A stretch of 64,000 nt of DNA from an uncultured Shimia sp. Its GTDB lineage: Bacteria; Pseudomonadota; Alphaproteobacteria; Rhodobacterales; Rhodobacteraceae. This document shows positions 50,163 to 64,000 of this stretch, in pieces. Below the pieces are notes generated by a model. It was not told the origin of the DNA, did no database searches, and worked only from the letters and a program-made list of their open reading frames with translations. The stretch is taken from assembly GCF_947493595.1 (NCBI RefSeq), contig NZ_CANLRL010000002.1, positions 496,001 to 560,000 on the forward strand. Direction: 5' to 3'. The translations under genes were made by a program, and so were the position numbers. Positions within the stretch are counted from its first letter, which is position 1. The number at the start of each line of letters is the position of its first letter.

Positions 50163-52170
50163 GACCTCAGAGTCTCAAGACCCTCTCCCTCAGGCGCCGA
50201 AAAAGCGCCGGGGTGCCTCCGTGCGGATGCGCCTCTTGGCCATCGCACTGTTGCCGACCCTTGTGGTTCTGCCGCTGTTCTTCCTTGTGACGGCGGTGAA
50301 CTGGTCTTCCCGTTTCGACAACCTATTGATTGCAAAGGTGAATGGCGAGCTGACCATCGCGCAGCAATACCTCAGCCAACTGCTTGAAAACAGTGATCTG
50401 CGGATGCAAGCGCTGGCGGAGAGTTCAGCGTTTGTGGATCGGGTGGTGTCCCAAGATCGCAATGCGGTTCTGACGCTTCTGGACAACAAGAAGTCCGAGA
50501 TGGGACTCGATTTTCTCTACTACATCAACGCTGACGGGGCGGTGTGGTCCTCGCCACGGTTTGTCGATGACATGGGGCTCACCAAATGGCCGGTGGTGTC
50601 GCAGGCATTGGCCGGCACAGGCTCGGCGCAGATTGATATTTTTAGTGAGTTCGATCTGGGGCAAGTGTCTGACAATCTTGCGGAAAAAGCGCGCATCAAT
50701 CTGGTGCCTACCCAGGCTGCTGTGCCAACGGAACGTACCGAGGAAACCCGGGGCATGGTGGTGCATGCCGCCACACCGGTGGAAGGCAGCGGCCGCAGCG
50801 GGGCGCTGGTTGGGGGCGTGTTGCTGAACCGCAATTTGACCTTCATCGATACAATCAACGATCTGGTCTATCCGACCGCGAGTCTCACCGAAGGCAGCCA
50901 GGGCACGGCGACACTTTTCCTAGAAGACGTCAGGGTTTCCACCAATGTGCGCCTGTTTCAGGATGAGCGCGCCCTGGGCACGCGGGTGTCGGCGGCGGTC
51001 TATGAGGCTGTGCTGGAACGTGGCGAGGTGTGGCTGGACCGGGCCTTTGTGGTGAACGACTGGTACATCTCTGCCTATGAGCCGATCATTGACAGTTTCG
51101 GTGATCGTGTTGGCATGCTGTACGTGGGGTTTCTGGATCAGCCGTTTCGTGATGCGAAGTTCTCCACCATCCTGACTTTCGCCATTGCCTTTGTGGTTAT
51201 CATATTGATTTCGGTGCCAATTTTCTTGCGTTGGGCGCGGCAGATTTTTGCGCCACTGGAGCGGATGCTGCGCACCATCGGGCGTGTTGAAGAGGGCGAC
51301 CTGAACGCGCGCACGCGGGTTGAGGATGGCGGCGAAATTGGCCGTGTTGCTGCGCAGATGGACAACCTTCTGGAGCAAATTCAGGAGCGAGATCGGGAAC
51401 TTACGCGGCGTGTAGTGGCGCGGACGCGGGACTTGGAAGAGGCCAATCGGCGGCTTGAGGCGACCTCGAAACAGTTGGTGGTGTCTGAGAAATTGGCCGC
51501 CGTGGGAGAGATCGCGGCCGGGATTGCACATGAGATCAACAATCCGGTGCAGGTGATTCAGGGCAATCTGGATGTTTTGCGGGTGCAATTGGGCGACGAT
51601 GCAGACCTGGTGAAGACCGAATTGCGGCTGATTGATGAGCAGACGCATTCGATTTTCCTGATTGTGAACAAGCTTTTGCAGTTCACGCGCCCGGACGAAT
51701 ACGCGGAAGGCAGCGAAGAGCATCGCCCCGCTGACATCATCACCGACACGCTGCCACTGGTGCAACATTTGTTGAGCAAAGGGCATATTGCGCTGTCGTT
51801 GGAGCTTGAAAGCATTAAGGCAATCTCGATCAACCGCACGGAGCTTCAACAAATCCTGATCAACCTGATGGTCAATGCGATCCACGCGATGCCGAATGGC
51901 GGGGCGTTGACCGTGGGCGCGTTGGATGCGGATCGGGACGGAAAAAATGGTGTACTGGTCTTTGTGAAAGACACCGGTGTGGGCATGGCGCCGGAGTTGT
52001 TGACCCGGATTTTTGATCCGTTTTTCACAACAAAACAAGGCGAAGGCACCGGTTTGGGCTTGTCGATTACTCGCAAGCTGGTGGAGCGCTACGACGGGGA
52101 AATTGAGGCGGACAGCGTGGTTGGCCAAGGCACTGAATTCCGGGTGTGGTTCCCGGCAACATCGGCCTGA
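50155..52170 (+). CDS. Cache/HAMP sensor histidine kinase of the formate dehydrogenase locus
   Basis: This 671-residue kinase has TM1 (about 26-48), a periplasmic Cache-like sensor domain (about 50-335), TM2 (about 337-358), HAMP (about 360-412), a coiled coil, the H-box with His459 in GIAHEINNPVQ, then an HATPase domain with N-box MVNAIHAMP, G1 VKDTGVGM, F-box FDPFFTTK and G2 GTGLGLS. It starts inside the end of the regulator gene. The sensor faces the periplasm where formate is oxidised, so formate or a C1 acid is a reasonable but unproven ligand. Confidence 0.9.
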   Translation: MTETSESQDPLPQAPKKRRGASVRMRLLAIALLPTLVVLPLFFLVTAVNWSSRFDNLLIAKVNGELTIAQQYLSQLLENSDLRMQALAESSAFVDRVVSQDRNAVLTLLDNKKSEMGLDFLYYINADGAVWSSPRFVDDMGLTKWPVVSQALAGTGSAQIDIFSEFDLGQVSDNLAEKARINLVPTQAAVPTERTEETRGMVVHAATPVEGSGRSGALVGGVLLNRNLTFIDTINDLVYPTASLTEGSQGTATLFLEDVRVSTNVRLFQDERALGTRVSAAVYEAVLERGEVWLDRAFVVNDWYISAYEPIIDSFGDRVGMLYVGFLDQPFRDAKFSTILTFAIAFVVIILISVPIFLRWARQIFAPLERMLRTIGRVEEGDLNARTRVEDGGEIGRVAAQMDNLLEQIQERDRELTRRVVARTRDLEEANRRLEATSKQLVVSEKLAAVGEIAAGIAHEINNPVQVIQGNLDVLRVQLGDDADLVKTELRLIDEQTHSIFLIVNKLLQFTRPDEYAEGSEEHRPADIITDTLPLVQHLLSKGHIALSLELESIKAISINRTELQQILINLMVNAIHAMPNGGALTVGALDADRDGKNGVLVFVKDTGVGMAPELLTRIFDPFFTTKQGEGTGLGLSITRKLVERYDGEIEADSVVGQGTEFRVWFPATSA

Positions 52171-52308
52171 GACTCAGGGCGAAAGCCTCAAAAACCGGTC
52201 CAAAATTGCAACGTCGGTATTGTGTCGGTATCGCGACTGTATTGCGGAGGTGGCGGTTTTGCGGGCAAAAACCGTTAACGCAGGGGCGTGAAGGCCAGAT
52301 TTTTTAAC

Positions 52309-54015
52309 ATGAACTCAGACGTAGACATATCAGACAGCGCAAGTAAGCCGGGTGTGTTCGCTGCTTTGCGGCAGCGGGCAGAGGTGGCGCGGTTTCTGTT
52401 GGACGCTGGGCTGGGCCTGCGGGATCCAATTGTCTTCCTCACGCTGATCTCTGGTGTGAGCCGCGCGGGTATGATCTTTGCCATCAACGAAACCGCGCGC
52501 AGTCATGCCGAGGGGCTGGGATGGTCGGTCTGGCTTCTGCTGTTTTGTGCGGCGGGCATGGTTGTCTCGGCCTACCTGCAAAAGGTGCGGGCCTTCACAT
52601 TGATCACCCGCATCGAAGCGCAGATGCGCCTTCGCTTGTCCGAGCTTCTACTACGGGCCAACATCGATTTCCTGATCTCCGGACGGCACGGAAAAGTCTA
52701 TGGCGCGATGACGGCGGAAGTGAACCAGTTGGCGCAGGCGGTGATCCATCTGGTGGAGGCGATTGGCGCGGCGATTGTGCTGCTGTTCGCCATTCCCTAC
52801 CTGTTTTTTGTGAGCTGGATTGCCGGTGTCGCTGCGGTGGCGGCCATTGCACTTGGCGGGATTGGCTTTGCGCTGATGGATGGGCCGGCGCGAGTTTGGG
52901 CTTTGAAGGCGTCCGACAGTTTTGCCGCCTATTGTGACCGTGTGAGTGACATGTTGGGCGGCTGGAAAGAGCTGCGGCTTAGAGCCAGCCGGCGTGAGGC
53001 GCTGGAGGCGGAAACCAAAGATGTGATTGCAGCGCAAGTGGCGCACAAGATGCGCTCTGAGCGGTTGTTTGCAGCCAGCACCGGTGGCGGGCAGGTCGCT
53101 GTGGCGCTTTTGATGTGCTTTGTCGTGATTGTGCTGCCGCAGTTGCAGGGCGGCGATGCGATTGTGATGTTTCAGGTGCTGACCATCATCTTCCTCGTGA
53201 ACGGACCCACGGAGTTGGTGTTCAACACGCTGCCAGTATTGAGCCGCGCGGAGAACAGTTTTTATAAGATCAAAAGTGTTGAGGCGGAGTTGAGCGAGGC
53301 GCAAAGTTTGGCGCTGACCGCAGAGCCGAAGTTGCTGGAGAGCTTTGAAGTAGTCGCTCTGCGGGGTGTTGAGGCCAATGTTGGCGAGGCACGCGATGGC
53401 GTGGTGCCGTTTCATCTGGGGCCTATTGATCTGACCTTCCACCCTGGAGAAACGGTGTTCATTTGCGGGGGCAACGGGTCGGGCAAAACCACGCTCTTGT
53501 CGTTGATCACCGGGATGCGGCACCCGGAAGCGGGGGAGATCCGGCTCAATGGCGCGGCGCTGACGGACAGCACAACCGCCAGCTATCGCGAACTGTTTTC
53601 GGCGGTGTTTGCGCAGTATCACCTGTTTGATCATGCCTATGGGCTGACCGAGTCTGAGCTTGTGGAATTAGAAGCGCGGATTGCGCAGCTGGGGCTGGAG
53701 CAGCGGGTGCAGCTTTTGGGCGACAAATTCTCCAACACCGCCCTGTCGGCCGGGCAAAGCCGCCGTTTGGCGCTGGCCGTGGCGTTGGCAGAGCAGCGGC
53801 CGATCATTGTGCTGGATGAGTTTGCCGCCGATCAGGATCCGGCCAATCGGGCGTTTTTTTATGACGTGTTGATGCCGGAATTGTCAGCATCCGGGCGGCT
53901 TGTCTTGGCGGTGACACATGATGATCACCAATTTGGGAAATGTGATCGCTTGATCAAAATGGACGCGGGGCGCATCGTGTCAGATGAGCGTATGCCGCGC
54001 CGCAAAGAGGTTTAA
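52309..54015 (+). CDS. SyrD/PvdE-type (cyclic peptide-like) ABC exporter
   Basis: The 568-residue half transporter has six membrane helices (about 40-320) and a C-terminal ATPase with Walker A GGNGSGKTTLL, a Q-loop FAQYHLFDH, the signature LSAGQSRRLALAVAL and Walker B PIIVLDEFAADQDP. The AGQ signature and EFAADQDP box mark the PvdE/SyrD group, whose members export siderophore precursors, lipopeptides or similar. The substrate here is unknown. The next gene, a Frag1-like membrane protein, is 4 nt away. Start at ATG 52309; an in-frame GTG at 52288 is less likely. Confidence 0.85.
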   Translation: MNSDVDISDSASKPGVFAALRQRAEVARFLLDAGLGLRDPIVFLTLISGVSRAGMIFAINETARSHAEGLGWSVWLLLFCAAGMVVSAYLQKVRAFTLITRIEAQMRLRLSELLLRANIDFLISGRHGKVYGAMTAEVNQLAQAVIHLVEAIGAAIVLLFAIPYLFFVSWIAGVAAVAAIALGGIGFALMDGPARVWALKASDSFAAYCDRVSDMLGGWKELRLRASRREALEAETKDVIAAQVAHKMRSERLFAASTGGGQVAVALLMCFVVIVLPQLQGGDAIVMFQVLTIIFLVNGPTELVFNTLPVLSRAENSFYKIKSVEAELSEAQSLALTAEPKLLESFEVVALRGVEANVGEARDGVVPFHLGPIDLTFHPGETVFICGGNGSGKTTLLSLITGMRHPEAGEIRLNGAALTDSTTASYRELFSAVFAQYHLFDHAYGLTESELVELEARIAQLGLEQRVQLLGDKFSNTALSAGQSRRLALAVALAEQRPIIVLDEFAADQDPANRAFFYDVLMPELSASGRLVLAVTHDDHQFGKCDRLIKMDAGRIVSDERMPRRKEV

Positions 54016-54019
54016 ATTT

Positions 54020-54802
54020 ATGACTTTATCACAATTGGCGCCAAGCCGGTCCACGGGTCTGGCGATGTTGGTGGCGCTGATCACCACAAGCTTTGTGACC
54101 GTGGTGGTGAATATCCAGATGTATTCGGCGCGCTGGAAATTTGCGGGGTTTTACCCGGAGAAGGCGGCGGAGCGCCCATCCACGATCAGTGAGTCGATTG
54201 CCGACCCGCGCATTGGCGAGCCGTTTGCCAACTGGCATTTGCTATGTGCGCCGCTGTTGTTTGTCGGGGTGGCTTGTTTGATTTTGTCGACATGGCGGGA
54301 GGCGCGGGCCAGCGGCCAAGCAACGCTGAAGATCACAACGGTGACTTGGATTTTGGTACTGTTGCAAGCCATGGCCTCGGTTGGCTTGGTGATCCTAAGT
54401 CAGTACCGGTTTCCGGATTTCCGAGATCAGCATATGGCGGGCAGCTATCTGTTTTTCTTCTCGCAAGCCTTTGTGGTGGTTGCGGGGGAAATCCTGTCGC
54501 GGGCCTATGCGGGTTTGGGCGCGGAAGGTCAGGTGGCTGGGCGTATCTGGTCGCCGCGGTTTGCGGGCTGGCGGCGGCGGTTTGTCTGGGTGCCGATTTT
54601 GCTTGGCGTGACGTATCTGTGCCTGTTCCTGGGCAAGGGATACGCACCGGAGGCGCTGCGCTATGAGGTCTATTGGGCCTATGTCAGCACCGAGCTTTTC
54701 CTGCTGAGCTCGTTCCTGTTTTACATGATGAGCTACGCACCGGATATGTGGCGTGTGTGGAAGCTCAGCCGTGTGGGTTACTCGCCGTTGGAGGCGTCCT
54801 GA
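54020..54802 (+). CDS. Multi-span membrane protein resembling Frag1/DRAM/Sfk1 family
   Basis: The 260-residue protein has about six hydrophobic segments. The first loop PSTISESIADPRIGEPF echoes the P-x-ISD-x-x-x-x-PP-F pattern of DRAM/Frag1, and the LSQYRFPDFRDQHMAGSYLFFFSQ segment recalls the FQ...H-G-G...F stretch. This eukaryote-named family includes the GPI-lipid remodeller PGAP2. The match is by eye and moderate. It follows the ABC exporter by 4 nt and overlaps the inositol-lipid operon's last gene by 25 nt at the 3' end. Confidence 0.55.
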   Translation: MTLSQLAPSRSTGLAMLVALITTSFVTVVVNIQMYSARWKFAGFYPEKAAERPSTISESIADPRIGEPFANWHLLCAPLLFVGVACLILSTWREARASGQATLKITTVTWILVLLQAMASVGLVILSQYRFPDFRDQHMAGSYLFFFSQAFVVVAGEILSRAYAGLGAEGQVAGRIWSPRFAGWRRRFVWVPILLGVTYLCLFLGKGYAPEALRYEVYWAYVSTELFLLSSFLFYMMSYAPDMWRVWKLSRVGYSPLEAS

Positions 54803-55389
54803 GCGCGCAGCATCTGTGTGGCGCGGCGGGCGCGTTGTAGCGCGGTGACATGGGCGAGGATGGCAAACCCGGTGAGGCCCCAGAGGATGGCGGTGTCGCC
54901 GAGCACGCCTGCGAGCAGCAGCATGGCGCAGAGGTAGATCACGCGCTCCATCCGCTCAAAGAAGTCGGGCCAATCGGTGTTGGACACGGGCATTTCGATG
55001 GCGGTTCGGGCCTTGGCGTAGGAGGTGATGACCGAGCCGGAGAAACAGGCCAGCGCGAGGGGCCAGGCGTCGTGCATATGCGCCAGCGTGGCGAGCACGG
55101 CGAGTTCCTGGTAGCGGTCCACCATGGCGTCAAAATAGCCGCCGGCTTTGGTGGACATGTTGCGGCGGCGGGCGACCGCCCCGTCCAGCGCGTCAAACAC
55201 AAAGGCCACGATCAGGGTTGCGCCATAAAGCGCGGGAGATTGGTGCCAAAGGTAGGCCAGCGACACGAGGATAATCAGCACCAGACCAATGAAGGTGACC
55301 TGATTGGGTGTCAGGCGGGCTTTGACCAGAGGGGTAGCCATGGCCTCCCACAGCGGGTCGATGGTGGATTTCATCAGGCCATCAATCAT
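54778..55389 (-). CDS. CDP-alcohol phosphatidyltransferase, phosphatidylinositol-phosphate synthase-like
   Basis: The 203-residue membrane protein has the complete signature D66-x2-D69-G70-x2-A73-R74-x8-G83-x3-D87-x3-D91. Two more segments, SYAKAR (123-128) and FFERMERV (143-150), match the S-Y-x-KAR and ERxER elements of mycobacterial and archaeal phosphatidylinositol-phosphate synthases, which join CDP-diacylglycerol to inositol-3-phosphate. The inositol-3-phosphate synthase is in the same operon. AAGGA precedes the ATG. It lies 11 nt after the kinase gene. Confidence 0.82.
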   Translation of the reverse strand: MIDGLMKSTIDPLWEAMATPLVKARLTPNQVTFIGLVLIILVSLAYLWHQSPALYGATLIVAFVFDALDGAVARRRNMSTKAGGYFDAMVDRYQELAVLATLAHMHDAWPLALACFSGSVITSYAKARTAIEMPVSNTDWPDFFERMERVIYLCAMLLLAGVLGDTAILWGLTGFAILAHVTALQRARRATQMLRAQDASNGE

Positions 55390-55400
55390 GGCGGTGTCCT

Positions 55401-56927
55401 TCAGGTGTAGCTGCGGATCGCGAGGCGGCGGATCTTGGCGAGTTGTTCGGCGCGGGCGGCGAGTTGGGCCGTGCGTGTTGGGTTGGGTGTGTAGCTGGCG
55501 GAGGTGCGGGTTTTGAGCTTGGCGGCGGCGTCGCACACGCTGTCGGCCCAGCCCATAAGTGGCGCAGCCAGCGTGGCGGTGCCGAGCATCCCGGCGTGGC
55601 GCGCAGAGCAGACGCGGATGTCGCGGTTGAGCGCATCGGCCAGCGTTTGGGCAAAGACCGGATCAGACGCCACGCCGCCGACAATGGAGAGAGGACCGGA
55701 GGTTTGAGCGCCTTTCTCGCGGGCGACTTTGGACATGGCCCAGCGGAGGTTGAGCGCAACGCCCTCTATGGCGGCACGACGCAGGGCATTTTTGTCGTGG
55801 TGCAGGCTGAGGCCATGGAACGTGCCGCGCAGGGCGGAGTTGTCCACCGGCACCCGTTCGCCCGCGAGCCATGGCAGGAAGAACGGGTCATCGTGCTGCG
55901 GGGTGCCGATGTCGGCAAAGCGGCTGTCTTTGGCGCCGTTGCCGGTCAGTTGGCAGACCCAATCAAGCGCAGAGCCGGCGTTTTCCTGACTGGCGATCAG
56001 CAGCGGGCGGTGGTTCAGGCCGGAGGTGATGGTGGCGTAGGAATGGGCCACCGACAGGCGGCGGTTGGGGAAGAATCCGGCGATCCAGGCGGAGGTGGCG
56101 ACGGAGATGTGCAGCGCGCCGTCGGCAACTTCGCCAGAGCCCAAAGCGGACGCCATGACATCCGAGGTGCCGCCGAGGACTTTGACAGTGGCGTCCAAAC
56201 CCAGCTCTGCGGCGGCTTGGGGCGTGAGGGTGCCTACGATGGTGTCGGCCTGGGTGATGGGCGCTAGTTTGGCGCGCTCGATACCGGTGAGGGCGCAGAG
56301 CGTGTCGGACCAGCCTTCGCGGCCTTCGCGGCTGTCCATCACCCAGCTGAGATTGGCGCTTTCGGGGCTGGTGGTCATCTCGCCGGTGGCGCGGTGTACC
56401 AGCCAGTCTTTCACATCCACCATCCAGCGGGTCTTGGCGTAGATCTCCGGTTCCTGCTGCATCACCCAGAGCATCTTGGCCGTTGGATCCATGCCGTTTT
56501 TGGCGGGCGCGCCATTGGCCAGACGCAGCCATTTCAAAAGGCGCGGGAGGTTGTAGCCATGCACCTCCGGAAAGCCGCCGGTGAGCTTTTGGCCCAGAGG
56601 GGCTGCGCGTTTGTCGAGCCACGTTAGGCAAGGGCGCAAGGGGGTGCCATTGGCGTCAGCGCAGATCACGCCACAGAGCTGAGACGAAAACACCAGCGCG
56701 GCGGTGCGTTTGGACAAGTCTGGCACCTCCTGGCGCAGAGTGGCCAGCGCGTGGGCCAGTGCGCCCCACCAATCCTCGGGGGATTGTTCGGCAATGCCGC
56801 CGGTTTTCAGAACAAGAGGATAGCTTTCGGTCACGCGGGCCAGAACGGTGAGGCTGCTGTCCACCACGCCGACCTTCACGCCGGAGGTGCCAAAATCGGC
56901 TGATATGACCAAATCGCCTTGTGTCAC
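55401..56927 (-). CDS. FGGY-family carbohydrate kinase
   Basis: This 508-residue protein has the xylulokinase-like two-domain layout: phosphate-1 motif ISADFGTSGVKVGVVD, a middle with TWLDKRAAPLG and GGTSDVMASALGSG, and the C-terminal GGVASDPVFAQTLADAL. The GTG at 56927 is used because GAGG sits 8 nt before it; another in-frame GTG is 9 nt upstream. FGGY kinases phosphorylate sugars or polyols. Its place in a lipid operon suggests an inositol or glycosyl-unit precursor, with no direct evidence. It is less tightly packed (107 nt gap upstream) and could have its own promoter. Confidence 0.83.
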   Translation of the reverse strand: MTQGDLVISADFGTSGVKVGVVDSSLTVLARVTESYPLVLKTGGIAEQSPEDWWGALAHALATLRQEVPDLSKRTAALVFSSQLCGVICADANGTPLRPCLTWLDKRAAPLGQKLTGGFPEVHGYNLPRLLKWLRLANGAPAKNGMDPTAKMLWVMQQEPEIYAKTRWMVDVKDWLVHRATGEMTTSPESANLSWVMDSREGREGWSDTLCALTGIERAKLAPITQADTIVGTLTPQAAAELGLDATVKVLGGTSDVMASALGSGEVADGALHISVATSAWIAGFFPNRRLSVAHSYATITSGLNHRPLLIASQENAGSALDWVCQLTGNGAKDSRFADIGTPQHDDPFFLPWLAGERVPVDNSALRGTFHGLSLHHDKNALRRAAIEGVALNLRWAMSKVAREKGAQTSGPLSIVGGVASDPVFAQTLADALNRDIRVCSARHAGMLGTATLAAPLMGWADSVCDAAAKLKTRTSASYTPNPTRTAQLAARAEQLAKIRRLAIRSYT

Positions 56928-57034
56928 GCGGCGCACCTCAAATTACAGTCGTCATAAAATAGCGCCTTTCACAGGCAAAAGTCCTGAAACCGGTGTGACA
57001 TGAGGCTGGCAAGTTTGGCAAGGGTCGGAAGGCT

Positions 57035-58153
57035 TTAGGTGGGAGCGGCCAAGGCCTGTGCGTATAATTTCACGTATTCGGGGCCAACGGTGGCGACGTC
57101 AAAGTCCATGGCGTGTTTGGTGGCCCATTTGGTCAATTGAGCGCGTTTGGCGGGGTCACTGGCCAGATTGATGAGCGTCTGCGCCAATGCGGCGGCGTCT
57201 CCGGGCGGCACCAACAGGTTCGAACCTGCGCCCGTCATCACGGTGGCAAAGCCGTCGTTGGCGGCGGCAACCGGCAGGGTACCCGCCGCCATGGCTTCGA
57301 TCAGCACAAGGCCAAAGCTCTCGCCATGTAGGGCGGGGGCGGCAAAGACATCAGCAGAGGCAATGAGGGCGCGCGCCTCGGCATCACTAGGCGGCGGTTG
57401 GAAAGTCACACGGGACAGATTGGCGGCTTGGGTGCGCAGGGCCGGTTCTTCTTCGCCTGTGCCTGCGATGGTCAATTCGGCGTTGGGGACGGCTGCGGCG
57501 ACAGCGTGCCACGCGTCGAGCAGAACAGACACACCTTTGCGGGCTTCCAAGCGGCCCATGTAGGCCACGCGTAAGGTTTTGGATGGGATTGCAGCCTCAC
57601 CTGCGGCGCGCCACGCGGACAGGTCAATGGTCGGCGGCAAGATCGCCGGAACGGGGTTGGCTCCGGCAGCCTCCCATTGGCGATAGGGTGCCATCGAGGG
57701 CACGACCACGCGGCTGATCCGGCGGTTGAAGTAATGACCCACGCGGCGCAGAGCAGCTGACATTGGGTCAAAGCCCGCGCCTTCCGGCAGGGTGGCGTGG
57801 AAAGTGGCGATGCTAGGCAATTTGAGCGCGCGCCACATCTGCCACGGCAAAAGCGGGGTCCAGGGTGTGTGCATGTGGATGACTTCCGCGCCCCATTCAC
57901 GCAGCTCTGAAACGGCGGCTTTAATCTCTCCTCGCGTGGCGCGGCTGACCTCAAAGCTGGTGCCGTGGATCGACCACGGGCGAGCAGTTCCAATCGTCAT
58001 CAGGCCTTCTTCCCTGTGCGCGGAGTTACCCGGCGGGGCGACGATGCGCACCTCATGGCCTTGGGTGCGGCACCAAGCGGCGAGGTCGCGGATGTTGCTC
58101 TGCACCCCGCCGGGGCGATCCATGGCGTAGGGGGTTAGCTGCACAATCTTCAT
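57035..58153 (-). CDS. GT4 glycosyltransferase, PimA-like
   Basis: The 372-residue GT-B protein begins MKIVQLTPYAMDRPGGVQSN, the same layout as mycobacterial PimA (PY-x2-D-x-PGGVQS-H). It also shares ATFHA, the GRLEARKGVSVLLDAW segment, and ADVFAAPALHGESFGLVLIEAMAAGT with the EX7E donor site. PimA transfers mannose from GDP-mannose to phosphatidylinositol on the cytoplasmic side of the membrane. The acceptor and sugar here are inferred. It overlaps the LptG-like gene by 4 nt. Confidence 0.82.
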   Translation of the reverse strand: MKIVQLTPYAMDRPGGVQSNIRDLAAWCRTQGHEVRIVAPPGNSAHREEGLMTIGTARPWSIHGTSFEVSRATRGEIKAAVSELREWGAEVIHMHTPWTPLLPWQMWRALKLPSIATFHATLPEGAGFDPMSAALRRVGHYFNRRISRVVVPSMAPYRQWEAAGANPVPAILPPTIDLSAWRAAGEAAIPSKTLRVAYMGRLEARKGVSVLLDAWHAVAAAVPNAELTIAGTGEEEPALRTQAANLSRVTFQPPPSDAEARALIASADVFAAPALHGESFGLVLIEAMAAGTLPVAAANDGFATVMTGAGSNLLVPPGDAAALAQTLINLASDPAKRAQLTKWATKHAMDFDVATVGPEYVKLYAQALAAPT

Positions 58154-59298
58154 GGCAGGCTCCGTGTGCTGCGGCGTGGGCGCGGTAGAAAACCAGCTTG
58201 ATACAGTTGCAGGAGAGCGGCGAGGCAAAGCGCAAAGAGTGCGGGCAGTGTTGCGGTCATCATGGGGGACAAGACGCCATGGATGCCAAGCGCCCAGAAG
58301 ACTTTCACAGACACCACGGCGAGGTAGCCCACCGTGGCAAGTGCCAGCAGTTTGAACGGCGACAAACGGCGGCCTTGGGTGCCGAGGCTGGCAAGGCTCA
58401 CGCCCAAGAAGACAAAGATGCCGGGCAGAAAGATCGCAACCCGGCGCACGGCGAGAGCGGTGGCGGCGTCTGTGGCCGTGGGAGTGGCCTCAGACCTGTC
58501 GGTGGCGGCAATGATGCGGGCGACGTCATTGGGCAGGTAGTAGCCATCAATGCCATACCAGCGCAGCTTTTCGGCGGAGATATTCAGCGCGAGGTCGAGT
58601 TTGGGTTCTATCTCGGGTGACTTTTTGGTGGTGTTCCAGATGGTCACTTCTTTGAGGGTCCAGACATTTAACAAGCCGCGCGGGGTGGCGGTGTCTGCGT
58701 GTAGAATGTGGGTGAGCGCTGGCTGATCGATGCCGCCAAACAGCATCAGGTTGCTGAGATGGGCTTCGGGACCGCGGGTGACAGTGGCGCGCAGGGCGCG
58801 GGTGTCGGTGAGCATCCACTGCGTGCCCACATCGGTGTTGTGATAGCGATTGCCATAATCGCCGAGATTGGCCGCGACTTGGGCTTCCACCGCAGCGGGG
58901 CGCAGCCAGTTTTCACCGGCCATTTGCACGGTGCCCAACAGCAGGCCAGAGATCAGCAGGGCGGTCAGGCGCAGGCTGGGGCTGGCACCGGCGGCGGCCA
59001 GCACCACATCATCGAGCCGTTGATGGCGCAACAAGGTCACAACAAAGCCGCCCGCAACGCAGGCCATTGTCAGCAGGCGAGTCACGATGTCGGCGCTGCG
59101 GTATGTGAGGTAGGGAAAGAGCACTTGCCAAAGGGGGGTGTCCGTGGCCTCGGCGCGAGCGCGCACGGTGTCGAGCCATTTGGCCAGATCGATGGTTAGG
59201 GCCACGACCAGCAGGATAAACATCATGAAGCCAATGGCGGCGAGATCACCGCGCACCATGGCGCGCACCGCAATACCTGTGTGCTGCCGCCAGCTCAT
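58150..59298 (-). CDS. LptF/LptG-family permease (second member, LptG-like)
   Basis: The 382-residue protein has three N-terminal helices (about 10-110), a periplasmic beta-jellyroll-like domain (about 130-270) and three C-terminal helices (about 285-375), the LptF/LptG plan. MSWRQHTGIAVRAMVRGDL is the expected N-terminus. LptFG with LptB2 lift lipopolysaccharide from the inner membrane. Canonical lptFG sits beside lptD in most Proteobacteria; this pair sits among lipid-synthesis genes. It overlaps its neighbours by 4 nt each. Order in the operon, not a diagnostic residue, is the basis for calling it LptG-like. Confidence 0.8.
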   Translation of the reverse strand: MSWRQHTGIAVRAMVRGDLAAIGFMMFILLVVALTIDLAKWLDTVRARAEATDTPLWQVLFPYLTYRSADIVTRLLTMACVAGGFVVTLLRHQRLDDVVLAAAGASPSLRLTALLISGLLLGTVQMAGENWLRPAAVEAQVAANLGDYGNRYHNTDVGTQWMLTDTRALRATVTRGPEAHLSNLMLFGGIDQPALTHILHADTATPRGLLNVWTLKEVTIWNTTKKSPEIEPKLDLALNISAEKLRWYGIDGYYLPNDVARIIAATDRSEATPTATDAATALAVRRVAIFLPGIFVFLGVSLASLGTQGRRLSPFKLLALATVGYLAVVSVKVFWALGIHGVLSPMMTATLPALFALCLAALLQLYQAGFLPRPRRSTRSLP

Positions 59299-60443
59299 GT
59301 GCGGCCTCGTTGCGGGGTCATCAGCGCCTCGCCGCGCCAGAGCAGGTAGGCAAGGGGCGGGCCGAGGTAGAAGGTGAGTGCAAGCAGCAGGAGGGCTGGT
59401 GTCGAGACGATGGCGGACCACTCCGCCAGCAGCGCCCGGCTGGCTACGTCAGCGGACATCATCAGAAGCGCGGCCAAGGGCAGGGCGGCATGACGCCAAG
59501 GACCCGCGCCTCCGATCAGCAAGGCGGCCAGTGCCAGCAGCCCCGCCATCGGCACCATCAGCGCGCGGGTCATAAGGCGGGTGAGCTGGGCGGGTTCGTT
59601 GGCGTTCAAATCCAGCAGTTGTTCAGCGGCGGTGCGGGTGGTGTCGGGCGCGGGTAGGGCGTCTGCCATTTGGAAGGCAAAGCTGGCTTGGGCTGTTTTG
59701 AACCGGTTGAGCGGTTTGGGTTGCTCATTTGGATAGGGCGCTTCGAGCACGGAGAGCGAGTGCAGTGTGATCGTGTGGGTGTCGGCCGGGGCCGGGTCGG
59801 TAACCTGCCAGTCCTGCGACTGCGCGACCCGCCAGTTGCCGTTTTGGTTTGGCTGAAACACAAACAGCTGGCCGCGAGATTGGGCCGCGTCCTGTGGTGG
59901 CGTGGCGATGAAAGTGGTGTCGCGGATGGTTTGCAGGGTGGTGTGGTCGCTGTTGGTGTTGATGCGCGACAGCACTTGGTCTTTTTGCAGCTCTGCCAGG
60001 GCAAGACGTTCGCCAAATTTGGCCATCGGCAGCACAAGCCCGGCGTTGAAGAAGCTGAGCAGCCCGCCGAAGGTGCCGAGCAACAGCACAAAGGCAATCA
60101 CGCGGCCCCAATGGATGCCAGCGGTGGCGAGGATCACCAGTTCGCCGCGAGTGCGGGCGTCTTGGGTGGCAAAATAGGTGGCGATCAGCAGGCTGATGGC
60201 GAGGGCGAGGTCGAGGATTTCGGGGGTTTTGAAGCTGAGCAGATGCAGCACGTCGCGGGCGGTGCCGTCGTAGCGCAGGGCGTGCTCCATCAGGGTGGTG
60301 AAGCTTTCGGCGAGGAATATGGCCTCGATCACCAGAAGCAGCAGCAACAGGCGCAAGATCAACGGCTTGCCCAACACGCGCACAATCGGCAGCCGGGGCA
60401 TCGGCAGCGCAAATTTGCGTGTGTGGGGGCGGTGTTGGCTCAT
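59295..60443 (-). CDS. LptF/LptG-family permease (first member, LptF-like)
   Basis: This 382-residue protein has the same plan: helices at about 30-125, a beta-rich periplasmic domain (about 135-275) and helices at about 285-375. The DARTRGELVILATAGIHWGRV segment matches the D-x-E-L-x-x-x-x-x-G-coupling-helix region that docks on LptB in the canonical system. It overlaps the second permease gene by 4 nt. Both likely share one ATPase, LptB, encoded elsewhere. No ribosome site is obvious at 60443, and an internal ATG at 60401 is possible. Confidence 0.82.
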   Translation of the reverse strand: MSQHRPHTRKFALPMPRLPIVRVLGKPLILRLLLLLLVIEAIFLAESFTTLMEHALRYDGTARDVLHLLSFKTPEILDLALAISLLIATYFATQDARTRGELVILATAGIHWGRVIAFVLLLGTFGGLLSFFNAGLVLPMAKFGERLALAELQKDQVLSRINTNSDHTTLQTIRDTTFIATPPQDAAQSRGQLFVFQPNQNGNWRVAQSQDWQVTDPAPADTHTITLHSLSVLEAPYPNEQPKPLNRFKTAQASFAFQMADALPAPDTTRTAAEQLLDLNANEPAQLTRLMTRALMVPMAGLLALAALLIGGAGPWRHAALPLAALLMMSADVASRALLAEWSAIVSTPALLLLALTFYLGPPLAYLLWRGEALMTPQRGRT

Positions 60444-60483
60444 GGGGTGAGTGTCTCTGCCAAGGCGGGGGCTGGCAAGGGGC

Positions 60484-61353
60484 TCACCACAGTTGGGCGA
60501 TTGTGTGTAGCGCGGTGATGCCGGCGCCGGCGGCGATCCAGCTGTCGAGACTGTCCAGCAGGCCGCCCTGACGGGGCAGAACTTGCGGGTAGTCTTTCAC
60601 ACCTGCGATGCGTTTGTGGCGCGAGGCGGCGAGGTCGCCAACCACGGCGAGGACACCGACCAGCAGCGCGGTGAGGGCGGTGGGCAAGAGCGGCAGGCCG
60701 AGAGCTGCGGCGGTGATTAGTGAGAGGGTCAACAGGGCCAAGCCGCCACCGAGCAGGCCTTCGACGGTTTTGTTGGGGCTGAGGGTGGGGAAGGCCTTGG
60801 TGCGGCCCCACATGGCGCCGAAGAACAGCGCAAAGCTGTCGAAGATTTCCACCATCAGGTAGGCGGCGAGCAGGAATGGGCCGAGGGTCGGGTCGACGGT
60901 GCCCGAGGCCAGTAAGCAGGCGGGTAGGATTGGGAAGATCAGCGTGGACGCGATGGCTTTGCGCCGTCCAATGATCAGCCGGGCGAGGGCGATGAAGAAC
61001 AGGCCCAACACAGCCAAGCCGCCCAGTTCGTGCATCATGGCTGCAAAGGCCAATGCGCCAGCTGCGAGGCCGATCAGGAGGGCGGTTTGTTTTGAGGGCA
61101 TGCGGACAAAGACAACTTCGTAGCTGATGCGCGCCACGATTGCGGGCAGGGCGATCAATAGCGCGGTGTCTCCTAGCCAAAACAGCGCCGTCAGCACTGC
61201 AATCAAGGCGACGGCTGTGCCGAGGGTTTTGCCAAACTCCATCGCGTCTTTGCGGCGGGCGGGGATCAGCGCCAGCACGGCGATGATGCCAAAGCCAAAG
61301 GCGTAGATGGCGACAATGGCGGTGGTGACTTGGGCTAACGTGAGGGCGGTCAT
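60484..61353 (-). CDS. CdsA-family phosphatidate cytidylyltransferase, divergent
   Basis: The 289-residue membrane protein has about eight helices, the FGAMWGRTKAFPTLSPNKTVEG segment and the family signature S244-R-H-K247-R248-x4-K253-D254. In the final part, the usual H-G-G...D-R...D reads Q262-G263-G264...D267-S268-L-D270, so two near-invariant positions (His, Arg) are changed. It would activate phosphatidate with CTP to CDP-diacylglycerol, the donor for the CDP-alcohol transferase of this operon. It overlaps the SDR gene by 4 nt. It may use a modified lipid, or be supplementary to a housekeeping CdsA. Confidence 0.82.
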   Translation of the reverse strand: MTALTLAQVTTAIVAIYAFGFGIIAVLALIPARRKDAMEFGKTLGTAVALIAVLTALFWLGDTALLIALPAIVARISYEVVFVRMPSKQTALLIGLAAGALAFAAMMHELGGLAVLGLFFIALARLIIGRRKAIASTLIFPILPACLLASGTVDPTLGPFLLAAYLMVEIFDSFALFFGAMWGRTKAFPTLSPNKTVEGLLGGGLALLTLSLITAAALGLPLLPTALTALLVGVLAVVGDLAASRHKRIAGVKDYPQVLPRQGGLLDSLDSWIAAGAGITALHTIAQLW

Positions 61354-62147
61354 TTGGCCTCGTGTTTGCGGATGATCCGCCGCTGGTGCCAGCGCAGGAT
61401 GGGCGAAATCAAACTGCTGAGGCTATTGAGCGCGCGCATTTGCGGGCCCGGTGTGACCACCGGTTTGCCCATCTCCATGCCTTTGATCAGACGACCGGCC
61501 ACATCCACTGGCTGCCACAAACCGCCACCTTCGGTGATTTCTTGCGTGGCGCTGGGCTTGGTGCGTTTTTCCGCCTCTAGCTGGGGTGTGTCGGTATCTG
61601 GCGGGTAGATCAACGTCACCGAGATGTTGGTGTTTTCCAATTCCAGATGCAGAATTTCCGCCAATCCGCGCAGGGCAAATTTGGAGGGTGCGTAGGCACC
61701 ATAGCCGTAGATGCCAAAGAAGGCCGCGCCGGAGGCGATCAGGCCAAAGCGCCCGCCGCCCGCCGCCGCCATCGGGCCGCGCAGGGTCTCGATGAAGGTG
61801 AGGGTGCCAAAATAGTTCACGTCCATATGACGCTGATGTTGTTCAAAATTTTGCTCGCGGAACAGGCCCGGCTCGGCGATGCCCGCGCTGGCAATGGCCA
61901 TGTCCGGCGGGCCAATTTTGCGCACTGCAGCTTTCAATGCTTCGACAAAGCTCACGCGGTTGGCCACGTCGACGGCATAGACCTCAACCTCGATGTCCGG
62001 GGCCGCCTCCAGCAGCGCGTCGCGGGCGGCCAATAGTTTGGATGCGTCCCGTGCAAACAGCGCAAGGCTGTAGCCTTTGATCGCCAGCTCCCAAGCGGCG
62101 GCAAAGCCAATGCCGCTGGACCCGCCGGTTATGAAGGCGGCGGGCAT
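61350..62147 (-). CDS. Short-chain dehydrogenase resembling 3-ketosphinganine reductase
   Basis: The 265-residue SDR has the coenzyme motif TGGSSGIG (7-14), catalytic Ser139 and Tyr152-x3-Lys156 (YAPSKFALRGLAE) and a long hallmark YPPDTDTP (181-188) followed by EKRTKPSATQEI. That YPPDTDTP-x-RTKP block, spacing included, is characteristic of the 3-ketodihydrosphingosine reductase (KDSR/FVT1) family. The C-terminal part has no clear transmembrane span but ends in a basic helix. It may reduce a ketone in the lipid made by this operon. It overlaps MIPS by 1 nt and CdsA by 4 nt. Confidence 0.78.
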   Translation of the reverse strand: MPAAFITGGSSGIGFAAAWELAIKGYSLALFARDASKLLAARDALLEAAPDIEVEVYAVDVANRVSFVEALKAAVRKIGPPDMAIASAGIAEPGLFREQNFEQHQRHMDVNYFGTLTFIETLRGPMAAAGGGRFGLIASGAAFFGIYGYGAYAPSKFALRGLAEILHLELENTNISVTLIYPPDTDTPQLEAEKRTKPSATQEITEGGGLWQPVDVAGRLIKGMEMGKPVVTPGPQMRALNSLSSLISPILRWHQRRIIRKHEAK

Positions 62148-63259
62148 CAGGCACCTTCGTTGACAAACCGCAGCACAACGTCGTGCGCGTCGGTGTCTTC
62201 AATCTGCTCTGGCGGGTGCTTGAAAAGGAATGCGGAGGCTTCAGAAATTGGCCCAGCCAAACCGCGATCCTTTGCGATGCGCGCCAAGCGGATGGCCACC
62301 AACGCTTCGGCGGCGGCGTTGGGACTATCTTCTACGTCCAGACGCACTTCGATGTTGGTGCGCGCGCCGCCAAACAGGCGGCCCTCTAGACGCACATAAG
62401 CCACTTTGCGGTCCTTCAGCCACGGCACATAATCGGACGGGCCGATGCGAATGTCATTCTCATCGAGACGCTGCTCCATGGCGGATTGCACCGCCTCGGT
62501 CTTGCTTTCGCGCTTGTTGGTCAGGCGCGCATTTTCGCTCATGTTGAGGAAGTCGGTGTTGCCACCCACGTTGAGCTGATAGGTGCGGTCAATCTCCACG
62601 CCGCGCATTTCCGCCAGATTGGCCAGGGTGCGGTGCAGGATGGTCGCGCCCATCTGTGCTTTGAAATCATCGCCCAAAATCGGCACACCTGCCGCGCGGA
62701 ATTTCTCCGCCCAGACCGGATGTGAAGCAATGAACACTGGGATGCCGTTGACCACCGCCACACCTGCTGCGAGTGCGCATTCGACGTAAAATTCCACAGC
62801 TTGCTGTGAGCCAACCGGCAGGAAAATGATCATCACCTCAGCGTTAAGCTCTTTTAGCGTGGCGACAATTTGATCTTTGGTCAGAGCGGGCTCATCAGAC
62901 AGGCGGAAGCTGCGGTCTGCCGGATTGGCCAGCATATGCGCGGCCACCCCATCCAGATCAGGGCCGCGTAACACGGGGGCGGATTGGTCCGCCAAGTCGG
63001 TGTGGAACTGCTCGGTACAGTTGGGCGCGGCAAAGGCCGCTTCGCCCAACGTCTTGCCCACTTTGCGGCTGTCGACGTCAAATCCGGCCACCAATTCGAC
63101 ATCGCCGGGTGTGAAGCCTGCCAACTCCGGAAAGCTGACTCCAACCGCCTCCTCCCCCAAAGCGCGGCAGTAGGAGACGCCCTGAATCAGCGAGCTTGCG
63201 CAATTGCCGACGCCAACGATGACAGTGCGGATGGGGGAAGGAACAGAGGCGTGGGTCAT
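62147..63259 (-). CDS. ino1: myo-Inositol-3-phosphate synthase, actinobacterial type
   Basis: The 370-residue protein closely follows mycobacterial Ino1: VGVGNCASSLIQGV (15-28), FDVDSRKVG, LPVGSQQAVEFYVECALAAGV, PVFIASHPVWAEKF, GDDFKAQMGATILHR, VGGNTDFLNM, RESKTEAVQSAM and IGPSDYVPWLKDRKVAYVRLEGRLFGG. It cyclises glucose-6-phosphate to inositol-3-phosphate using NAD+. This is rare in alphaproteobacteria. Together with the CDP-alcohol transferase it implies a phosphatidylinositol-type lipid. It overlaps DUF4833 by 4 nt. Confidence 0.92.
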   Translation of the reverse strand: MTHASVPSPIRTVIVGVGNCASSLIQGVSYCRALGEEAVGVSFPELAGFTPGDVELVAGFDVDSRKVGKTLGEAAFAAPNCTEQFHTDLADQSAPVLRGPDLDGVAAHMLANPADRSFRLSDEPALTKDQIVATLKELNAEVMIIFLPVGSQQAVEFYVECALAAGVAVVNGIPVFIASHPVWAEKFRAAGVPILGDDFKAQMGATILHRTLANLAEMRGVEIDRTYQLNVGGNTDFLNMSENARLTNKRESKTEAVQSAMEQRLDENDIRIGPSDYVPWLKDRKVAYVRLEGRLFGGARTNIEVRLDVEDSPNAAAEALVAIRLARIAKDRGLAGPISEASAFLFKHPPEQIEDTDAHDVVLRFVNEGA

Positions 63260-63912
63260 TCGGTATAAGCTCCGCCGGAAACGGCAATGGTATGAGTGAC
63301 ATAAAGACCTGTTAGGGGGTCATTTGTATAGAGGCGCAGGCGCGTGACCTTTGGAAAGAGGCCACTCTCGTCCACGTCCAGATAGGCATAGATCAAGCGG
63401 TAGTCGCGGTTGTTGATCCTGGCAAAAAATGCTGCGGTAAAGGGCGCGGTCTGACGCAGTTCCAACGGGTGGGACTTTAATCCGTTGAACGTCAGGCGCA
63501 GGGCATTGGGGGTGTCGGTTGTGCGCAACCTCACACCAAAGCCAAAGGCACGTTCATACCAGCGCAGCGGCATCACCTGCCCTTGGTCCTGAAAGCGGCG
63601 CCAATAGACCGCAACAGGTGTTTCGGTGTCCAGATTGCCAGCGGCGTCAAAATGCGCGGTGTAGACCACGGTGTTGGCATTGATCGTGCGTTGCAAGAAA
63701 AACAGTTGATGCAGATCGGCTGGATGGCGGAACTTCGGGTTCACATGTGGCAGGTGTGGTGTTTCCGTGAGTGACAGCGGCGTGAGGGAGGGTTTTGCCG
63801 ATGTGGCAGCGGTGGTCAGGCAAAAACACACAAGGGTCAAGATGGCGAAGGCCCAGACTCCGTTGAGGCACCGGCAAGGGCGCGGCATGGTCGTGATGGC
63901 GTTCCCGGTCAT
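63256..63912 (-). CDS. DUF4833 secreted protein
   Basis: The 218-residue product has a signal peptide (about residues 15-40, cleavage near TSA-K) and one domain with LHQLFFLQRTINANTVVYTAHFD, PVAVYWRRFQDQGQVMPLRWYERAFGFG and a C-terminal beta-rich part RLIYAYLDVDESGLFPKVTRLRLY, the DUF4833 pattern. The W-R-x-Y-E-R core is family-like. Function unknown; periplasmic. It is next to MIPS (4-nt overlap), so it likely handles or presents the lipid. Start may be at 63912 or an internal ATG at 63888. Confidence 0.78.
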   Translation of the reverse strand: MTGNAITTMPRPCRCLNGVWAFAILTLVCFCLTTAATSAKPSLTPLSLTETPHLPHVNPKFRHPADLHQLFFLQRTINANTVVYTAHFDAAGNLDTETPVAVYWRRFQDQGQVMPLRWYERAFGFGVRLRTTDTPNALRLTFNGLKSHPLELRQTAPFTAAFFARINNRDYRLIYAYLDVDESGLFPKVTRLRLYTNDPLTGLYVTHTIAVSGGAYTE

Positions 63913-63916
63913 GCCG

Positions 63917-64000
63917 CTATTCCGCGCTGAGACGTTGTCGGGTCGCTGTGGCTGTGATCAGTGCCGTCGCCACGGCAGCAATCACCCGATCAATGTCGGC
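63917..64000 (-). CDS. C-terminal end of a minus-strand gene (partial)
   Basis: From the right edge a frame is open and ends at TAG (63917-63919), giving ...ADIDRVIAAVATALI...RQRLSAE (27 residues). The stop is 4 nt before the DUF4833 start, so it is the next gene upstream in the same operon. The fragment is too short to name, and it could encode the lipid phosphatase the pathway lacks. Confidence 0.4.
   Translation of the reverse strand, partial: ADIDRVIAAVATALITATATRQRLSAE

Follow-up and report, generated by a model that had tools for sequence, protein, structure and literature searches.

The lipids considered here belong to a class known above all from mycobacteria, yeast and plants. Fungi and plants make mannosyl and glycosyl inositol phosphorylceramides, and mycobacteria make phosphatidylinositol (PI) mannosides by way of Ino1, PIPS (PI-phosphate synthase) and PimA. 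Inositol in Bacteroides thetaiotaomicron is joined both to diacylglycerol and to dihydroceramide, PI-dihydroceramide being formed via the BT_1522 route, and the alphaproteobacterium Novosphingobium acidiphilum is reported to have a lipid that behaves like PI-dihydroceramide though it is without both of the Bacteroidetes clusters (PMC9246714). The phosphosphingolipid cluster of Caulobacter, CC_1152–CC_1168, has a dedicated acyl carrier protein (ACP), an acyl-ACP synthetase, an epimerase-type CerR, CerS and a ceramide kinase, with phosphoglycerate as the head group (PMC11324152). In the present study we analysed a 64,000-nucleotide stretch of DNA, hereafter the window, from an uncultured Shimia sp. 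of the Rhodobacteraceae (NZ_CANLRL010000002.1, positions 496,001 to 560,000; G000:C2:496001-560000), the end of which carries a gene cluster with a myo-inositol-3-phosphate synthase (MIPS).

On the basis of sequence comparisons, we propose that the product of this locus is an exported, glycosylated lipid with phosphoinositol, most probably anchored on a sphingoid base, a reading to which we give a probability of about one half. Its parts differ in strength: the product is very probably a glycosyl-phosphoinositol lipid, its export via LptF and LptG is likely, and a sphingoid anchor is slightly favoured. The genes, in window coordinates, are:

52288..54015, plus strand: ABC exporter, fused permease/ATPase of the cyclic peptide export type (TIGR01194, 310 bits, cut-off 286.2); candidate flippase
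53984..54802, plus strand: Frag1/DRAM/Sfk1-type membrane protein, kin of PGAP2 and CWH43-N (PF10277, by orthologue alignment); candidate remodeller or acyl-exchange factor
54778..55389, minus strand: CDP-alcohol phosphatidyltransferase, PIPS-like (PF01066, E 2.2e-15)
55401..56936, minus strand: FGGY-family kinase, xylulokinase-like (PF00370/PF02782)
57035..58153, minus strand: GT4 glycosyltransferase, PimA-like (PimA structures 4n9w and 2gej)
58150..59298, minus strand: LptG-type permease of the MIPS-linked clade (PF03739, 67.1 bits, cut-off 27.9)
59295..60443, minus strand: LptF-type permease of the MIPS-linked clade (PF03739, 66.2 bits, cut-off 27.9)
60484..61353, minus strand: CdsA-like cytidylyltransferase with the altered signature QGGxxDxxD (PF01148, E 3.9e-34)
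61350..62147, minus strand: short-chain dehydrogenase/reductase (SDR), 3-ketodihydrosphingosine-reductase-like (TSC10 8jat, E 2.5e-24; Y...K motif)
62147..63259, minus strand: MIPS, actinobacterial type (PF01658, TIGR03450, 1gr0)
63256..63912, minus strand: DUF4833 protein with a helix at the N-terminus and a beta-rich domain after it (PF16117, E 1.4e-22); candidate periplasmic partner
63917..64000, minus strand: 3' end of an alpha-oxoamine synthase (AOS), serine palmitoyltransferase (SPT)-like (open reading frame of 408 aa)

The minus-strand run holds, within the window, nine intact open reading frames (ORFs) from 54778 to 63912, each with one terminal stop, and its eight junctions comprise five overlaps (1 or 4 bases) and three gaps (40, 98 and 11 bases), which bears out the nine complete, tightly packed genes described in an earlier note made from the sequence alone; from this spacing we infer a single transcript. 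The gene names given in that note also agree with Pfam, which returned matches over cut-off for all nine (CDP-OH_P_transf, FGGY_N/C, GT4 domains, LptF_LptG twice, CTP_transf_1, adh_short, Inos-1-P_synth and DUF4833), and among the NCBIfam matches listed (for SDR the best 25 of 193, for GT4 the best 25 of 31) none of the nine reached a curated cut-off. The set proved larger than the nine genes counted there: the run has ten, the first being AOS, which lies 4 bases upstream of DUF4833 and mostly past the window end (whole gene at window-equivalent 63917-65143, i.e. G000:C2:559917-561143 or L002:11917-13143), and the ABC exporter and Frag1-type gene, convergent with the run and inside the window, are members of the same conserved set. 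AOS probably starts the run, because a divergent gene, which reads like an oligopeptide ABC transporter, begins beyond it. At the other end, the Frag1-type ORF overlaps the ORF of the CDP-alcohol transferase by 25 bases.

MIPS was found in 12 of 295 genomes of the family, and DUF4833 in 11 of these 12 and in none of the other 283 (Fisher p 4e-19, for related genomes that are not independent). PF10277 was found in ten, namely the 11 genomes with DUF4833 minus the window's own, which falls just under threshold, and these nested sets of 12, 11 and 10 indicate that MIPS, DUF4833 and Frag1 co-occur more than by chance. In stretches from the 11 DUF4833 genomes, by presence thresholds that were chosen after a first view of the loci, CdsA, LptF, LptG and Frag1 are present in all, the GT4, FGGY, CDP-alcohol transferase and ABC genes in ten, SDR in nine and AOS in eight. 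In G291, the one MIPS genome that lacks DUF4833, MIPS is 56% identical, and the 19.9 kb read there hold no further member of the set above thresholds. The earlier note had held that its proposal would fail were these genes never conserved together; they are conserved together in many genomes.

Scanning GTDB gave 38 MIPS loci, 25 alphaproteobacterial and 13 archaeal, and the carriers of the cluster include several named Shimia strains. The alphaproteobacterial loci hold MIPS in 25, LptF in 24, DUF4833, SDR and LptG in 23 each, CdsA in 22, AOS in 21, GT4 and ABC in 20 each, FGGY and CDP-alcohol transferase in 19 each and Frag1 in 18, in which several loci end at a contig edge or at the 10 kb flank, three of the counts take in extra stretches and some loci may be of the same species as the family genomes. 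At the archaeal loci (L040-L052), from Asgard-type metagenome-assembled genomes (MAGs), MIPS is 45-48% identical to that of the window, and no other cluster gene was seen in the surroundings except for weak ABC matches in three. Elsewhere the set is divided or rearranged: in G126 and G282 one group, made up of ABC, Frag1, CDP-alcohol transferase and FGGY, lies away from the rest, and in G152 Frag1 stands alone, the stretches read having given no FGGY, CDP-alcohol transferase or ABC gene. Beyond the family, G862 has the full twelve-gene set; G437, likewise from outside the family, has AOS, SDR, CdsA, MIPS, GT4, FGGY, CDP-alcohol transferase, ABC and Frag1 in reshuffled order (its CdsA is under the presence threshold, at 54 bits, yet was found in the other search at E 2.5e-9); and in G750, which belongs to another class, one contig end carries a group formed by CDP-alcohol transferase, GT4, Frag1 and CdsA.

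The head-group enzymes were compared with their closest relatives, taken as sequence matches among solved structures, of which the 6h53, PimA and 1gr0 entries are mycobacterial. MIPS scores 120.7 bits against PF01658 (cut-off 27), matches TIGR03450 over its full length with 379.6 bits, under the equivalog cut-off of 638, and has inositol-3-phosphate synthase 1gr0 as its nearest solved relative (E 1.2e-105). For the CDP-alcohol transferase the top NCBIfam model is archaetidylinositol phosphate synthase (124.2 of 180 bits), the cut-off of the PI-phosphate synthase model NF045883 is missed (86.4 of 170 bits), and the nearest solved relative is 6h53, CDP-diacylglycerol--inositol 3-phosphatidyltransferase (E 7.6e-11). 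SYxKAR and ERxER, with residues seen in the 6h53 alignment, occur in all 22 extracted orthologues, and a pattern search found D..DG..A.........G...D...D in 21 of the 22 (exception L081). The GT4 protein matches PimA near full length (4n9w, E 4.7e-48 over residues 1-367; 2gej, E 1e-47), the next family reaching only E 1.2e-15, and PimA leads by >100 bits the weaker-scoring structures that we take to be MshA.

CdsA is a second copy, the other CdsA of the genome (L068) having HGGxxDRxD, and QGGxxDxxD replaces the HGG form in each of the 31 distinct CdsA proteins taken from the clusters, a count from which three duplicate rows were left out and in whose sample the copies of G437, G862 and G750 do not figure. 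The nearest solved relative of the FGGY kinase is a xylulose kinase (E 5.1e-41). In every genome or locus compared, FGGY is accompanied by the PIPS-like gene, which it still adjoins in the split clusters L086 and L087, and G750 (12 kb read) alone has the PIPS-like gene without FGGY. These matches identify relatives and not proven members with the same substrate; MIPS, the PIPS-like enzyme, LptF, LptG and AOS all score under equivalog cut-offs. Read together, MIPS, CdsA, the PIPS-like and the PimA-like enzymes spell a predicted hexosyl-phosphoinositol lipid.

Both enzymes of the presumed lipid base have relatives in sphingolipid synthesis. AOS is nearest to the serine palmitoyltransferases 8guh/3a2b (E 1.5e-66), and the SDR, which carries the Y...K motif, to the 3-ketodihydrosphingosine reductase TSC10, with the next relative at 9.8e-19. 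AOS and the TSC10-like SDR, both gone near MIPS in G095 and G246, point to a sphingoid anchor, and the fit of the solved relatives (SPT, TSC10, inositol-3-phosphate synthase, PI(P) synthase and PimA) supports the scheme of a sphingoid and inositol lipid. PAP2_3 (PF14378), presumably the family of AUR1 and BT_1522, had no counterpart at E<=1 in the genome of the window (11 of 14 controls match; the wider PAP2 family PF01569 was not searched). Given this empty search, there is no evident step of the AUR1 type, and the simplest alternative to the AUR1/BT_1522 route is a CDP-activated sphingolipid made by the altered CdsA. The earlier note had proposed that an Lpt-like machine moves a glyco-phosphoinositol lipid, a view strengthened by the relatives of MIPS (actinobacterial type), the PI(P) synthase and PimA and by the separate LptF/LptG clade; a sphingolipid-type anchor went unconsidered there because AOS (outside the window), Frag1 and the ABC exporter had been missed.

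In the pathway that we propose, AOS would condense an acyl thioester with an amino acid (probably serine), the ketone so formed would be reduced by the TSC10-like SDR to yield a sphingoid base, and MIPS would convert glucose-6-phosphate into inositol-3-phosphate. The FGGY kinase would fit either salvage of free inositol, supplying inositol phosphate, or the part of the missing lipid kinase. The altered CdsA would then give a CDP-activated lipid, which the PIPS-like transferase would couple to inositol phosphate, and the PimA-like GT4 would add a hexose, probably mannose. The Frag1-type protein may edit or acylate the lipid part, as its kin PGAP2/CWH43 do on glycosylphosphatidylinositol (GPI), the ABC exporter would flip the lipid, and the dedicated LptF and LptG, with the periplasmic DUF4833 and perhaps the common LptB, would extract it towards the outer membrane.

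The LptF and LptG of the cluster are likewise second copies, another pair being present elsewhere in the genome, and they miss the lipopolysaccharide equivalog models TIGR04407 and TIGR04408 (75.7 of 230 and 52.7 of 240 bits). Thirty-three LptF/LptG proteins, from the window and 13 other loci (a subset of the loci), were placed in a tree with several long branches. There the MIPS-linked LptF form a clade of 14 rows (support 100/99) and the MIPS-linked LptG one of 13 rows (99/96), apart both from the housekeeping pairs and from the spt-linked pair of E. coli BL21, where spt adjoins lptG and lptF. That BL21 pair was used as a stand-in for Caulobacter LptF2/G2, and its place apart from the window pair is, with such long branches, a caution only against kinship with LptF2/G2. 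The predicted model of DUF4833 (pLDDT 88) has a helix at 11-32 followed by strands; the protein is a candidate periplasmic partner, and a full-text search of the open-licence PMC literature found no paper on it.

The Frag1-type protein, of 272 residues and with a helical predicted model (pLDDT 91), gave for the window member alone no Pfam match at 0.001 (PF10277 at E 0.0014, 18.6 bits, gathering cut-off 30.3). All 18 aligned orthologues (the window's and 17 others) match PF10277 at E<=1, the best at 2.6e-12, and six of its ten counterparts from the family search exceed the cut-off. In a class search of 337 genomes there were six Frag1 matches, of which the four over cut-off (G210, G305, G314 and G437) all come from genomes with MIPS and the two weaker ones (G318 and G470) from genomes without it. 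In G305 and G314 the Frag1 gene sits on a different contig, one that does not carry the cluster, and the surroundings of that in G470 show none of it. A phylum search of 398 genomes gave nine matches, those of G862, G750 and G210 inside a cluster and those of G689, G782 and G925 outside, with G746, G748 and G769 not among the contexts read. As several Frag1 genes thus sit outside clusters, Frag1 was dropped as a lone marker. A different kind of bacterial Frag1 was observed at L125 (G314) and L129 (G305), outside any MIPS cluster. We take PF10277 to include PGAP2 and the N-terminal part of CWH43, and action of the window protein on the anchor is a possibility that we rate a little below even.

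Several results weigh against the proposed product. AOS falls under the SPT cut-offs of NCBIfam (NF047600, 281.8/640 bits; NF047599, 272.2/500; NF047603, 200/670), and its top NCBIfam score is with the BioF model, 325 bits vs 282 for SPT. No convincing ceramide N-acyltransferase was found in the genome (with E. coli YghO as query, 28% over 106 residues, E 0.001), and the cluster contains no recognised sphingoid-base or ceramide kinase and no inositol phosphate (PIP) phosphatase, neither having been sought genome-wide. In the stretches read, AOS and SDR are both missing near MIPS in G095 (the contig of which ends ~1.8 kb past DUF4833) and G246, and AOS is missing there in G152; because of these loci, the head-group part may work without AOS and SDR. 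G437 has no LptF/G or DUF4833 match within 38.9 kb by the queries for these genes, and most of the 33 MIPS genomes of the class search do not show this gene set. MIPS alone was accordingly rejected as a marker: among the 17 class-search MIPS genomes read (18 MIPS stretches, taken along with two Frag1 contigs, plus G000 and G210; 14 of the 33 not read), the set was seen in G437 only. At one further locus, L135 (G542), the contig edge cuts through an AOS-like gene (33%), which is therefore partial, and single weak matches occur at several others.

The alternative that survives best, although we consider it rather unlikely, is a diacylglycerol anchor, i.e. a glycosyl-PI resembling the mycobacterial PI-mannosides, with AOS and SDR serving a sphingoid lipid of its own kind, linked to the glycosyl-PI only through a common operon and perhaps a common exporter. 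Mycobacterial MIPS, PIPS and PimA do work on diacylglycerol lipids, G095 and G246 keep the rest of the set without AOS or SDR nearby, and no clear ceramide synthase was found; set against this are the presence of AOS (8/11) and SDR (9/11) near MIPS in the DUF4833 genomes of the family and of both in the distant G437, and a second, altered CdsA that would be needless for ordinary CDP-diacylglycerol. An anchor made in two steps, in which a diacylglycerol PI would first be glycosylated and the Frag1-type protein would then swap in ceramide or a new acyl chain, is improbable, although it agrees with the Frag1 match of every aligned orthologue and with the travelling of Frag1 with the cluster, in another class together with CDP-alcohol transferase, GT4 and CdsA. 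CWH43 is needed in yeast for the ceramide form of GPI (diacylglycerol to ceramide) and PGAP2 for reacylation (PMC7125958), but whether PGAP2 is itself an acyltransferase is given as unclear in the literature; moreover, Frag1 is kept in G095 and G246 despite no AOS or SDR nearby, and for some bacterial Frag1 proteins no such cluster surrounds the gene. A soluble inositol compound in place of a membrane lipid, such as a di-inositol-phosphate-type solute or a mycothiol-like thiol, is scarcely credible, since for all that some alphaproteobacterial MIPS genes lie near fused inositol-phosphate cytidylyltransferase/phosphotransferase-like genes and the GT4 also resembles, more weakly, the MshA-type structures, the genes conserved with MIPS (CdsA, LptF, LptG, AOS and the TSC10-like SDR) are of lipid type, PimA outscores the MshA-type entry by the margin given above and the window locus has no match to the NTPtr-type nucleotidyltransferase described below.

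Relatives of the locus carry additions. Among the 11 DUF4833 genomes of the family, six have a nucleotidyltransferase (NTPtr), the top NCBIfam model of which is inositol-1-phosphate cytidylyltransferase/phosphotransferase, far under cut-off, and a second CDP-alcohol transferase and a Stealth protein each occur in five; the window locus has none of the three, and the NTPtr match in G437 is probably an unrelated nucleotidyltransferase. At L054:14455-18018 an antiparallel nucleotidyltransferase, second CDP-alcohol transferase and/or Stealth-type protein are inserted around GT4, and similar insertions occur at L024, L027, L028, L029, L031, L055, L059, L061-L063, L077 and L145. Such extras hint that the head group may bear another phosphoinositol or a sugar-phosphate. 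In a Siculibacillus MAG (L037, L074; JAOTSD010000016.1) and a related MAG (L034, L075), the cluster region has two ACPs and two ketoacyl synthases (KAS), as if a special acyl chain fed AOS. Other alphaproteobacterial MIPS genes stand near a fused nucleotidyltransferase/CDP-alcohol transferase-like gene (L121:6916-8262 and L124:12147-13559), which by our reading resembles di-inositol-phosphate enzymes. In the window itself, ORF reading places a sigma-54-type response regulator and a membrane histidine kinase at 48774-52170 (+), directly before the ABC exporter, and this two-component pair might regulate the locus.

Hoeflea MAGs (L038:507-14308 and L039:7264-21066) carry MIPS with an ABC ATPase, LptF/LptG-type genes, an ACP and a KAS, and also two ABC-transporter-like ORFs and an enoyl-hydratase-like protein; the ATPase of L038 resembles LptB and has a PgpA-like phosphatase in its vicinity. 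The MIPS-linked LptF/LptG of L038, which has no AOS, fall inside the cluster clades. That these loci link MIPS and LptF/G without AOS, DUF4833 or a PIPS-like gene in the stretches is a further point against the proposed product, and they possibly represent a second, related MIPS-Lpt arrangement, an inositol-lipid export cluster without AOS.

If our proposal of an exported, most probably sphingoid-anchored glycosyl-phosphoinositol lipid is right, marine bacteria of the Roseobacter group and some other Proteobacteria would produce a glycosylated inositol lipid that is probably a sphingolipid and has a dedicated surface route, and these would be genes for an alphaproteobacterial inositol-lipid pathway. 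DUF4833 would gain its first functional context, and the debated PGAP2/CWH43-type role a bacterial setting in which to test it. More tentatively, the product may be a bacterial mannosyl inositol phosphorylceramide made by a CDP route (a QGG-type CdsA and a PIPS-like enzyme, not AUR1), with PGAP2/CWH43-N-type editing and a third kind of LptF/LptG; bacterial Frag1 proteins would then mark an old, GPI-independent role in the remodelling of glycosyl-inositol lipids. Searches of the open-licence PMC literature on Rhodobacteraceae inositol lipids, Roseobacter sphingolipids and CDP-ceramide brought up no paper on this pathway.

Compared with known systems, the gene combination is a variant of inositol-lipid pathways already described, as Lpt-SPT sets are known from Caulobacter and inositol sphingolipids from Bacteroidetes. 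The likeness to the mycobacterial PI-mannoside pathway lies in the nearest solved relatives of three head-group enzymes, whereas the window locus has a Gram-negative host, AOS, the TSC10-like SDR, LptF/G, DUF4833, Frag1 and an altered extra CdsA. With BT_1522-BT_1526 of B. thetaiotaomicron (PMC9246714) it shares MIPS with a CDP-alcohol transferase; in contrast to that cluster, its genome gave no PAP2_3 match in the search with PF14378 and its operon has no PgpA-like gene, and it adds the PimA-like enzyme, LptF/G, Frag1 and AOS. The Caulobacter cluster (PMC11324152) resembles it by an SPT gene, a second LptF/LptG set (LptC2/F2/G2) and a putative flippase, whereas the window has the TSC10-like SDR, a predicted inositol head and no clear CerS. 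Finally, the glycosyl inositol phosphorylceramides of fungi and plants, and GPI remodelling by CWH43/PGAP2 (PMC7125958), correspond in predicted product class and in a Frag1-type protein; by contrast, the joining enzyme would be a CDP-alcohol transferase and not AUR1, and no GPI-anchored proteins are implied.

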